From: Acidobacteriaceae bacterium
GTDB taxonomy: Bacteria; Acidobacteriota; Terriglobia; Terriglobales; Acidobacteriaceae
Reading direction: 5' to 3'
NCBI GenBank assembly: GCA_030041955.1
Contig: JASIAO010000067.1
Span: 1 to 38,140, forward strand
DNA: 38,140 nucleotides
Shown: piece by piece, positions 573 to 3,168 of the stretch
Numbering within the stretch: the first letter of the stretch is position 1
Layout of the letters: each line of letters starts with the position of its first letter
Notes under the pieces: model-generated
Database searches by the model: none
Told to the model about the DNA's origin: nothing
Seen by the model: the letters and a program-made list of their open reading frames with translations, nothing else
Made by a program: the position numbers and the translations under genes

Positions 573-1481
573 TCAGGCTTCCGCGTATTCCATCTCCTGC
601 TCTTCGTCGAGGCCGTGGCGGCGCAGCAGCGTGGGCAGGTTCTGCGAGAAGGCGCTGCGCGGCATCACCATGTCGCAGCCGGCTTCCAGCGCCTTGGCTT
701 TCAGGTCCCCCTGCAGGTGCGAGAGGAATCCGATGACTGAGGTGCCGCGCTTCAGCTTCGCCTTCAGTTTCGGAATGAGCGTGAGCGGCTTGGCCGCGGC
801 ATTGTTCAGATCGAAGACGATCAGCGACGGGCGCTCCTCTTCGGGCGCCTCGACGATTTTGGCCAGCGTCTCCGGCTCGTTCTTAACGAAGGCCACTTTG
901 ACCCCGATTTTGCGCGCGGTCTCGTTGATCTTCGCGAAGAAGAACAGGTCCTCGATGAAAAGGAAAATGCGCGTGGGCGCGTCCTCGCGGACCGGCGGCG
1001 CGGGCGGCTCCCATGGCGCGGGCTCCGCATAATAGCCGTTGCCGTTCACGTTGCCGTTGCGGAGCTCGATGGTCGAGGGGGGCGCGTCGGCAACGTTGCC
1101 GTTGACGGTGCGGTAGCTGTGGTCCATGGGACCGACAAAGACGCGCTCGCGGCGCTGCTTGCCGCGGCGGCGACCCCCTCCGCCCTGGCCTCCCTGCGGC
1201 TGGCCGTTGCTCTTGAAGAAGCGCTGCTGGCTCGAAGGCTGCGGCTTGGGCGGCTTTTGCTTGTGCTGGTGGGGCTGCGCTTGGGCAGGCTGCTGGCCCT
1301 GCGCCTGGGGCTGTTGCTGCCCGCCGGCGTGCGCGGCTGCTCCCTTGTTGCGCTTGCGGCGGCGACGGCGGCGACGGCCGCCCGGAAATTGTCCCTGATT
1401 CTGGGCTTGCGCCTGATTCGAGGCCTGAGCCTGGGGCGGCGCTTCCGCCGGAGGCTGAGACTGGTTCTGCTCTGATGTCAT
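573..1481 (-). CDS. Disordered Arg/Gln-rich protein with C-terminal receiver-like domain
   Basis: I start this at the ATG at 1481 (302 residues) rather than the track's 1601, because AGGAAG sits seven bases upstream and the extra 40 residues look non-coding. Residues 1-165 are low complexity: Gln/Pro/Ala repeats, an Arg/Lys run (GGRRRRRRRKRNKG) and an RGG-like stretch (GGGRRRGKQRRERV), which suggests nucleic-acid binding. Residues 170-290 resemble a response-regulator receiver fold: an acidic pair after strand 1 (FIED, E177/D178), an Asp at the phospho-acceptor position (IVFDLNN, D224), a Ser near the Thr/Ser switch (GFLSHL) and Arg in MPRSAF where the invariant Lys is expected. It may therefore be a non-canonical receiver. 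It is monocistronic and ends at the shared terminator. I do not recognise a named function. Confidence 0.75.
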   Translation of the reverse strand: MTSEQNQSQPPAEAPPQAQASNQAQAQNQGQFPGGRRRRRRRKRNKGAAAHAGGQQQPQAQGQQPAQAQPHQHKQKPPKPQPSSQQRFFKSNGQPQGGQGGGGRRRGKQRRERVFVGPMDHSYRTVNGNVADAPPSTIELRNGNVNGNGYYAEPAPWEPPAPPVREDAPTRIFLFIEDLFFFAKINETARKIGVKVAFVKNEPETLAKIVEAPEEERPSLIVFDLNNAAAKPLTLIPKLKAKLKRGTSVIGFLSHLQGDLKAKALEAGCDMVMPRSAFSQNLPTLLRRHGLDEEQEMEYAEA

Positions 1482-2015
1482 GCGTGCACTTCCTGGTGCG
1501 ATAGATAAGGTCCCTGGTCCCATCCCGACGCTGTCGGCGATTGCTCGAGCGGCGGGGTCACAAAGCGGAATGCAGGAACGCGGTGTTAGGTCTAAGGTCA
1601 AGCTCCGGCGTCAACACCCTGACAGAAACTGACGGATATCCCCGGAAAGTTAAGTTTGCGGCAAAGCGGCACCGAACTGGCTCCCGACTGAACGGGGGAG
1701 CCGGCGGAACACCACGAAATGCCACGTCGATCAACGGAACGCAATCGAAATCGCCGTCCGATCCTGATTCACCATTCGCCACCGGATCTCCGCAGCCAGC
1801 ACACTGCCGGGGCGGGTTCCGGGGCCGATTCCAGACTCTCGAGAATGCGGCGAGCCTCGCCGAGTTCACAGCATGGCGTCAGCCGCTCGATAGGTAAGTC
1901 CAATACTACTCCGAGAGCACTGCACTGGCAAGCTATTTGATGCGTGGGAGGGAGCGGGGCGATGCACGGAGGGATGGGGCGGGTTCCGGGGCGGCGAATC
2001 GGGTAGGCGGGAAAG
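1482..2015. other. Gene-poor intergenic region
   Basis: About 530 bases without a convincing gene. The track ORFs here (1541..1897 and 1719..1940 on plus, 1558..1869 and 1769..2221 on minus) lack recognisable domains, good ribosome sites and sensible composition. TTGACG and TTGACC motifs (minus strand, near 1596-1614) could be -35 elements for the receiver-like gene, but I see no matching -10 at normal spacing. Confidence 0.5.
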
Positions 2016-2046
2016 CAAAAAGCCATCCGCATGGGCGGATGGCTTC
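2016..2046 (-). terminator. Intrinsic terminator, minus strand
   Basis: An 11-bp perfect stem (AAGCCATCCGC / GCGGATGGCTT) with a 4-base loop is followed on the minus strand by TTTTT. It ends whatever transcript crosses 2050-2350 from the right: the candidate RNA and/or mutM read-through. Confidence 0.8.
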
Positions 2047-2212
2047 TCGATGGCCAGTCACTGGCCTCCCTAAAATTCCCTTCCTCCTCGCGGTGTCCGG
2101 GATGCTTGCATTCCGGCCGGGGCAAAACCTTGTAAGGGATGCTCTCGGCGGCCGGAATTCTCTGTCGCAGTGACCCTTCTGTGGAGGGCCTGTGCGTCGC
2201 TGGCATCGTGCA
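2016..2212 (-). ncRNA. Candidate structured small RNA with its own terminator (6S-like shape)
   Basis: Read on the minus strand, about 190 bases fold as a long rod. The 5' CGATGCCAG (2208-2200) pairs with 3' CTGGCCATCG (2057-2048) with a single bulge. GGCCCTCC pairs with GGGAGGCC further in, and a perfect 10-bp arm ATTCCGGCCG/CGGCCGGAAT (2149-2158 with 2110-2119) closes the apical part. Large unpaired stretches separate the two. A strong terminator follows. No ORF or downstream gene is attached, since the next minus-strand gene starts 535 bases further on. A closing stem, a central bubble and an apical hairpin at this length are the layout of 6S RNA, but I cannot match conserved 6S sequence. 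A long leader or trailer of mutM is the alternative. Confidence 0.4.
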
Positions 2213-2346
2213 TAAGAGCAATTGGCGGGCCGTTTCGATTGCTCCGGAAAATCAATAACTTAGGAGAAAAGTGAGGGCGCGTACGCTTCCGATTCCCGTA
2301 GAGCGTCGAGGGGGCCTTCCATAAATCCATAAAGGAACGCCGCAGA

Positions 2347-3168
2347 TCAGTGCTGGCAATGAGGGCAGAAGTGGGTTCCGCGGCCGGCGAGGACGATGCG
2401 GCGGATGGGGGTTCCGCAGACGCGGCACGGTTCACCCTGCCGGCCGTAGACGCAGTGTTGGATCTGGAAGAATCCCTCCGAGCCATCGGCGTCGACGTAA
2501 TCCGAGACGGAGGAGCCCCCGGCGCGAATGGCCGCGCGGAGGACGGAGCGCAGGGCATCCCGGAGCCGGTCGAGGCGTGGGCGGGTGAGCCGGCCGGCGG
2601 GGCAAGTAGGGCGGATTCGAGCGCGGAAGAGGCTTTCGTCGGCGTAAATGTTGCCCACGCCGTGAAGCAGAGACTGGTTGAGCAGCGCGGCTTTGATCGT
2701 GAGCTTGCGTCCGCGGAAGAGCGCGGCAAACTCGTCGCGGGATATGGTGAGCGGCTCGTGGCCGGGGCCGGCGAAGTCGTGCACGAGGGCCAGTCGGCCG
2801 AATCGCCGGGGATCGACAAAGCGGAGCTCGCGGCCCGAGGCCAGGTGCAGGATGGCATGGGTGTGTGGCGGGAGTGGGACTTCGGGCACAGAGACGAGCA
2901 GGCGTCCGGTCATGCCAAGATGAACGAGCCACTGAGCCTGGTTCGAATGAGCTTTGCGGGACCGGGGATTCGCAAGGTCGAAAACGATGTGTTTGCCGAC
3001 GCGCCGGACGCGGTCGATGCGCCGCCCCGCGAGGGCGGATGCCATCGCATCGGGCGGGGTCTTGAAGGGCTGTTTGAATGAGGAGAGCCAGGCGGAGCGG
3101 ATGGTGTCGCCATGGATGCGGCGATGGACGCCGTTGGCGATGGTTTCGACTTCAGGCAGTTCGGGCAT
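2347..3168 (-). CDS. mutM: Formamidopyrimidine-DNA glycosylase (Fpg/MutM)
   Basis: 273 residues, the usual length. This bifunctional base-excision enzyme removes 8-oxoguanine and formamidopyrimidines and nicks the abasic site. The protein opens with MPELPEVE, so after Met removal Pro is the catalytic N-terminal nucleophile and Glu3 its partner. RLLVSVPEVPLPPHTHAIL and the DPRRFGRL motif belong to the N-terminal beta-sandwich. LNQSLLHGVGNIYADESLFRARIRP is the helix-two-turn-helix. The C terminus carries the zinc finger CxxC-x16-CxxC (CRVCGTP ... THFCPHCQ). The gene stands alone and is transcribed away from the TonB receptor gene, with a shared upstream region of about 230 bases. The 3' end encoding the zinc finger shares a 12-base block with the palindromic repeats described elsewhere. 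Confidence 0.97.
   Translation of the reverse strand: MPELPEVETIANGVHRRIHGDTIRSAWLSSFKQPFKTPPDAMASALAGRRIDRVRRVGKHIVFDLANPRSRKAHSNQAQWLVHLGMTGRLLVSVPEVPLPPHTHAILHLASGRELRFVDPRRFGRLALVHDFAGPGHEPLTISRDEFAALFRGRKLTIKAALLNQSLLHGVGNIYADESLFRARIRPTCPAGRLTRPRLDRLRDALRSVLRAAIRAGGSSVSDYVDADGSEGFFQIQHCVYGRQGEPCRVCGTPIRRIVLAGRGTHFCPHCQH

Follow-up and report, generated by a model that had tools for sequence, protein, structure and literature searches.

The window, that is the whole stretch of 38,140 nucleotides of an Acidobacteriaceae genome that was analysed, was found to carry on its minus strand a structured RNA gene (positions 2016-2206; predicted start at approximately 2206 and terminator end at approximately 2016), which is distinguished by its fold energy, its homologs and covariation. 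The promoter motifs in front of this gene, together with its fold, its complementarity to a second small RNA and its co-occurrence with this partner, suggest that it encodes what is probably a sigma-54-controlled two-site sponge (target mimic) for the partner. A wider reading, which we advance more tentatively, is that the two RNAs form a circuit confined to the Acidobacteriaceae, in which a two-site RNA controlled by sigma-54, an activator and IHF would sequester a small RNA with an invariant seed of 17-18 nt, and one signal would reset a whole set of mRNAs.

Few bacteria are more common in soil than Acidobacteria. For the phylum as a whole, however, a survey from 2022 counted just 4 distinct small RNAs with an annotation (PMC9029176), and our literature search, which was partial in its coverage and leaves an earlier description possible, found no description of such a small RNA in Acidobacteria. 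Two apparently undescribed RNA families are thus presented together, with a predicted interaction, a predicted sigma-54 switch and the exact sites to mutate. RNA-based regulation in Acidobacteria would thereby become directly testable, and a dedicated, promoter-controlled sponge could be set beside the mostly enterobacterial examples.

Structure of the RNA element

The region had been marked in a first-pass annotation, made from the letters of the sequence, as a candidate free-standing structured RNA, and the presence of a folded RNA on the minus strand was borne out. At 2016-2212, this strand has a predicted fold energy of -81.7 kcal/mol, where shuffled sequences average -64.7 kcal/mol (z -4.2; 0 of 200 shuffles), DNA comparison revealed the element in 12 of 12 genomes of the source genus (the 11 others at E values of 1e-27 to 1e-7), and compensatory changes were found among the homologs. 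The conserved parts of the RNA are: (i) a 5′ hairpin; (ii) a long central hairpin with an internal GAGAGC block (2109-2158, minus strand); (iii) a third hairpin; (iv) a 3′ block, GGGAGGCCAGUGAC; and (v) a perfect intrinsic terminator, AAGCCATCCGC/GCGGATGGCTTTTT (2016-2045, minus strand), whose pairing is kept within the genus by double changes. The apical arm (ATTCCGGCCG/CGGCCGGAAT) and the strong terminator described earlier are both present on the minus strand, the arm with compensatory changes. Of the complementary ends reported for the RNA, GCCAG/CUGGC proved to be conserved, and the rest of the outermost stem (CGATGCCAG/CTGGCCATCG) did not. The homologs have no conserved reading frame in the element, with neither a shared start nor a shared frame; on the same ground, a hidden peptide was rejected.

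The check for compensatory changes that had been proposed for homologous regions yielded changes supporting the hairpins. In a sequence-only alignment (A2), 20 of 36 pairs were changed on both sides, as compared with 10.1 in shuffles and with only 7-11 when the structure was slid along the alignment; in the long central hairpin, the same alignment showed changes on both sides in 8 of the 10 outer pairs. A model-fitted alignment (A4), which leans towards the structure, gave 27 of 36 pairs changed on both sides and 90% of cells paired, versus 30-45% with the structure slid. Covariation supports the 5′ hairpin, the long central hairpin with its internal GAGAGC block and the third hairpin. A further small hairpin, GGCCAGUGACUGGCC (2052-2066, minus strand), lies over the 3′ block and has 100% of its cells paired; it hardly varies, so covariation is no test of it.

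Distribution

A covariance model built from 21 members recognized the element in 19 of 95 family genomes, representing 16 of 79 genera. Divergent forms occur in further genera, and the carriers overall amount to roughly 20-25 of the 79 sampled genera of the family. A pattern derived from the 3′ block was found in 85 of 398 family genomes, at one place each (the reversed control gave 2 matches); most of these 85 pattern matches were inspected, and the one in genome G333 (locus L057) looks like a chance match in coding sequence. Of 67 records from a named collection, about 52 belong to Acidobacteriaceae or to unnamed Acidobacteria, the named carriers being Granulicella, Edaphobacter, Acidipila, Silvibacterium, Bryocella and Paracidobacterium. 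About 14 matches to the 3′ block outside Acidobacteria (Pseudomonas, Cyanobium and others) were set aside as apparent chance matches, with low sigma-54 scores and no clear terminator.

Some loci have peculiarities of their own. One record titled Verrucomicrobia (locus L078; CAJCIP010000058.1) has the full arrangement, linked gene included; it is probably an acidobacterial metagenome bin under a wrong label. Genus g17 appears to carry two copies of the sponge locus (L174 and L203 in genome G027; L202 in G121). In the Granulicella-type loci L138, L120, L087, L139 and L141, the putative sponge has a terminator-like hairpin whose U-tract is weak and whose loop, CUUCCGGGGAGGGGAG, is conserved, possibly as a further pairing or protein site.

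Predicted promoter and candidate upstream control sites

Directly upstream of the RNA lies a sigma-54-type promoter, ACGGCCCGCCAATTGCT (GG-N10-GC; 2217-2233, minus strand). The motif AA[C/A]GG-N10-GC, which has the spacing of sigma-54 promoters, is found there in 12 of 12 genus members, and the transcription start predicted from it falls exactly where the conservation of the RNA begins. The -24 element of the source genus is CGG, one base off the usual TGG. Stronger versions occupy the same place across the family: other genera have textbook sigma-54-type sites (TTGGCACGCAGATTGCT, TTGGCATACAGATTGCT), and high-scoring sites are present at the expected position in almost all family loci, while the chance matches in other phyla score low.

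Upstream of the promoter, TAAGTTATTGATT (2250-2262, minus strand) agrees with the IHF consensus at 9 of 9 positions and lies 16 nt before the sigma-54 site. All 9 positions are matched in 17 of 28 mutM-linked loci (versus 0.1% of shuffles), and the spacing of 16 nt is the same in all six mutM-linked loci measured. The consensus is present only in this mutM-linked group, being absent in the Granulicella/Edaphobacter group. Two blocks still farther upstream are candidate enhancer (activator) sites: site 1, TTATGGATTTATGGAAG (2316-2332, minus strand), was found in 12 of 12 genus members and in a looser form in most family loci, and site 2, TCTACGGGAATCGGAAG (2286-2302, minus strand), is a conserved block. 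The source genome encodes rpoN and Hfq and has ten activator-domain matches. A search for the activator via its own promoter, in which a weight matrix of site 2 was run over the activator loci, gave one high score (locus L149); this candidate was dropped, as the match looks like codons of the activator's own C-terminal helix-turn-helix (LYRKLK).

The view of the element as a free-standing RNA is supported by its own sigma-54-type promoter, its own terminator, the compensatory changes and the lack of a reading frame. Given the promoter and the sites upstream of it, the element is probably an independently transcribed small RNA rather than read-through from mutM.

The partner small RNA

A search of 95 family genomes with the 14 best-conserved letters of the RNA led, in most positive genomes, to a second place, which in the source genome lies at G000:C294:13777-13790 (locus L219, 478-491, plus strand). 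Here another small RNA gene is predicted, with the same 14 letters on the strand opposite to its own. The 14-mer is present in 28 of the 95 genomes, versus 4 matches of a reversed-pattern control. The partner gene, which occurs in many genera of the family, is composed of an unconserved body, an invariant (G)TTGCGTCACTGGCCTCCC and, directly after it, the terminator GGCACGAAC...GTTCGTGCCGTCTTTTTTT; the seed, UUGCGUCACUGGCCUCCC, is directly 5′ of this terminator, and the RNA is predicted to end at GTTCGTGCCGTCTTTTTT. The five letters TTGCG, which adjoin the 14-mer on its left and lie outside the search pattern, are nevertheless identical in 30 of 30 aligned loci, and in one genus (locus L216) the same seed is followed by a different terminator. 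Among 250 sampled genomes of the class, the exact 17-letter seed occurred only inside the family; outside it, the same sample held a few scattered one-mismatch matches, about as many as the reversed control. In two genomes the partner RNA is located near the tmRNA gene (loci L193 and L198), and a Rfam search showed that the tmRNA matches at partner loci are separate genes.

Complementarity and co-occurrence of the two RNAs

The 3′ block (3′ site; 2057-2070, minus strand), which is the most conserved part of the element, matches the partner seed (GUCACUGGCCUCCC) as its exact reverse complement, and in 32 of 33 homologs it can pair with the seed at 14 of 14 positions. The 5′ end of the RNA, GCCAGYGACGYA, is complementary to an overlapping part of the same seed, and the corresponding 5′ site, GCCAGCGACGCA (2193-2204, minus strand), forms 11 of 12 pairs in 30 of 33 homologs, a number reached by 0.3% of shuffles. 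This second site is recognizable only in the mutM-linked group and has one central mismatch in the source genus. The predicted cognate duplexes have energies of -30 to -36 kcal/mol (z -3.2 to -4.7), and at most 1 of 200 shuffles was as good.

The predicted fold hides most of the 3′ site within the GGCCAGUGACUGGCC hairpin, and a free stretch ahead of the site (AUUUUA) is a possible toehold. Several genera have lost the arm of this hairpin, yet keep the pairing letters GGGAGGCCAGTGAC, as is expected of a pairing site. The hairpin was dropped as an essential feature, genera g9, g17 and g78 having kept only GGGAGGCCAGUGAC.

The partner was found in 19 of 19 model-positive and in 9 of 76 model-negative family genomes (Fisher p 1.5e-13, a value that overstates independence, because presence and absence follow clades). 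Most of the nine partner-bearing model-negative genomes have a divergent form of the putative sponge upstream of the same linked gene; in genome G078, the partner is present and no sponge was found beside the linked gene. From genus to genus, the seed and its complement have scarcely varied, although nearly all of the sequence surrounding them has changed. As the partner seed is invariant, compensatory changes between the two RNAs cannot be shown; base pairing between them would be the simplest reason for the conservation.

Proposed mechanism and direction of control

According to the mechanism that we propose, sigma-54 RNA polymerase would transcribe the RNA of approximately 190 nt under an enhancer-binding activator, with IHF assisting in the mutM-linked group. 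Its 3′ site and its 5′ end would both pair with the partner seed, helped by Hfq. An active sigma-54 signal would thus lead to titration or destabilization of the partner by the RNA, and the partner's targets would be released. These targets are probably the start regions of mRNAs, since the CCUCCC end of the partner is able to pair with Shine-Dalgarno sequences. The roles are assigned from the plan of each molecule: the partner looks like a regulator, with an invariant seed beside a U-rich terminator and the anti-Shine-Dalgarno CCUCCC, and the RNA of the window looks like a sponge, with two complementary sites and separate sigma-54 control.

The complementarity itself is symmetric and silent on which RNA controls which. 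The main rival explanation reverses the direction, the RNA of the window being a sigma-54-dependent, trans-acting regulator of mRNAs and the second RNA its sponge or antagonist. A sigma-54 promoter of its own resembles those of regulatory RNAs such as glmY, and GGGAGG could pair with C-rich mRNA stretches too. We nevertheless consider this arrangement unlikely, because the RNA of the window is long and structured and offers two sites for a single stretch of the partner, whereas the partner, with its invariant seed, U-rich terminator and variable body, is planned like a base-pairing regulator.

Gene neighborhood

The sponge candidate had initially been described as lying upstream of nothing, which is wrong: a conserved gene encoding an arginine-rich protein with a receiver-like domain (573-1481, minus strand) starts approximately 540 bases downstream on the same strand. 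This linked gene follows the RNA, in the same order and orientation, in 45 of roughly 50 family loci examined. Its product combines a degenerate receiver-like domain with an N-terminus that is rich in arginine and glycine and probably disordered; matches to PF00072 in 7 of 10 members stay below the cut-off, and no Pfam family was found above it. The long conserved 5′ leader of the gene (1486-1895, minus strand) contains a hairpin, GAGCGGCUGA..GCUCGCCGC, near its start and a ribosome-binding site within a small hairpin, GCACCAGGAAGUGC, immediately 5′ of the ATG. Direct pairing between the partner seed and the beginning of the receiver-like mRNA found no support (mean of -15.3 kcal/mol, versus -16.2 kcal/mol for shuffled sequences).

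The conserved gene order, the succession of a structured element and a terminator, and the fact that the leader of the receiver-like gene is conserved too would also fit a cis-acting leader or attenuator of this gene. Such a role is quite improbable, since the linked gene has a sigma-70-like promoter of its own, TTGCCA-N17-TAGTAT (1903-1931, minus strand), situated approximately 100 nt past the 3′ block of the RNA, with -35 and -10 boxes conserved in the homologous loci. Moreover, the gene is present in 88 of 95 family genomes, mostly without the RNA element, and a leader function would leave the complementarity to a distant RNA unexplained.

On the other side of the RNA, the source genus has mutM (2347-3168, minus strand), encoding formamidopyrimidine-DNA glycosylase (Pfam PF01149, PF06831 and PF06827). 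As mutM ends approximately 140 bases upstream on the same strand, the RNA could be its 3′ tail, produced by read-through ending at the terminator and perhaps processed to a 3′UTR-derived RNA, a scenario which the first-pass annotation had named as refuting its own proposal. We judge it very unlikely. The interval between mutM and the RNA holds the sigma-54-type promoter together with the IHF and enhancer blocks. In addition, mutM is the upstream neighbor only in part of the family: of about 50 loci, 22 have mutM at this place and another 22 have a divergent OmpH-like gene there, so the RNA is not simply a tail of mutM. In Granulicella and Edaphobacter, mutM is not adjacent to the RNA.

Comparison with known regulatory RNAs

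CrcZ of Pseudomonas and the Qrr RNAs of Vibrio are regulatory RNAs switched by a sigma-54 activator; CrcZ sequesters Hfq via A-rich motifs, and the Qrr RNAs act on mRNAs. Their sigma-54 control is like that predicted here, but the sequence plan of the acidobacterial RNA differs. The glmY gene of Escherichia coli has a sigma-54 promoter, several upstream activator sites and IHF (PMC6075780), and GlmY acts as a decoy (PMC7073468). The features of the enterobacterial GlmY system (QseF/GlrR, sigma-54, IHF) have as putative counterparts here the sigma-54-type promoter, the two candidate activator sites and, in the mutM-linked group, the IHF consensus. GlmY, however, decoys the protein RapZ, which acts on GlmZ, whereas the molecule decoyed here appears to be a small RNA, bound by direct base pairing; the activator sites of GlmY (TGTN12ACA) are also different, and no Rfam relation was found.

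A functional likeness is offered by the sponges SroC (for GcvB), the chbBC spacer (for ChiX), 3′ETS-leuZ and RbsZ, in which the complement of a small RNA seed titrates that small RNA (PMC8383071). The feature in common is an RNA carrying the complement of such a seed. These examples come from enterobacteria, and several of them are processed from mRNA or tRNA transcripts; in contrast, the acidobacterial RNA appears to have a structured gene dedicated to it, with a separate sigma-54 promoter and two sites for a single seed.

Decoying of a protein, in the manner of CsrB, CrcZ or GlmY, was also weighed, in which case the reverse-complement stretch of the second RNA would be there for another reason. 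The motif GCCAGYGA is repeated at both ends of the RNA, GGA motifs are also present, and GlmY is a precedent for a sigma-54 decoy RNA. This explanation has very little probability in our view, as a protein site gives no reason for a second conserved RNA of matching distribution to carry its exact reverse complement. In the source genome (96.7% complete), CsrA (PF02599) is absent by a search that was positive in control genomes, and a protein sponge of the CsrB/RsmZ type was rejected on this basis.

The covariance-model check (6S and others) suggested in the first-pass annotation matched no family: no Rfam 15 family was found above the gathering score in the window, in 18 family loci or in the partner RNA locus. 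The likeness to 6S RNA (RF00013) noticed there is one of length, long hairpin and general plan, and the chance that the element is a 6S RNA is negligible, given that the 6S model had no match in the window at the gathering score, nor at E up to 10, that the features of the RNA point to pairing with a small RNA, and that the source genome has a separate 6S RNA elsewhere (G000:C45:3735-3925, locus L031), with 63.4 bits, above the Rfam cut-off.
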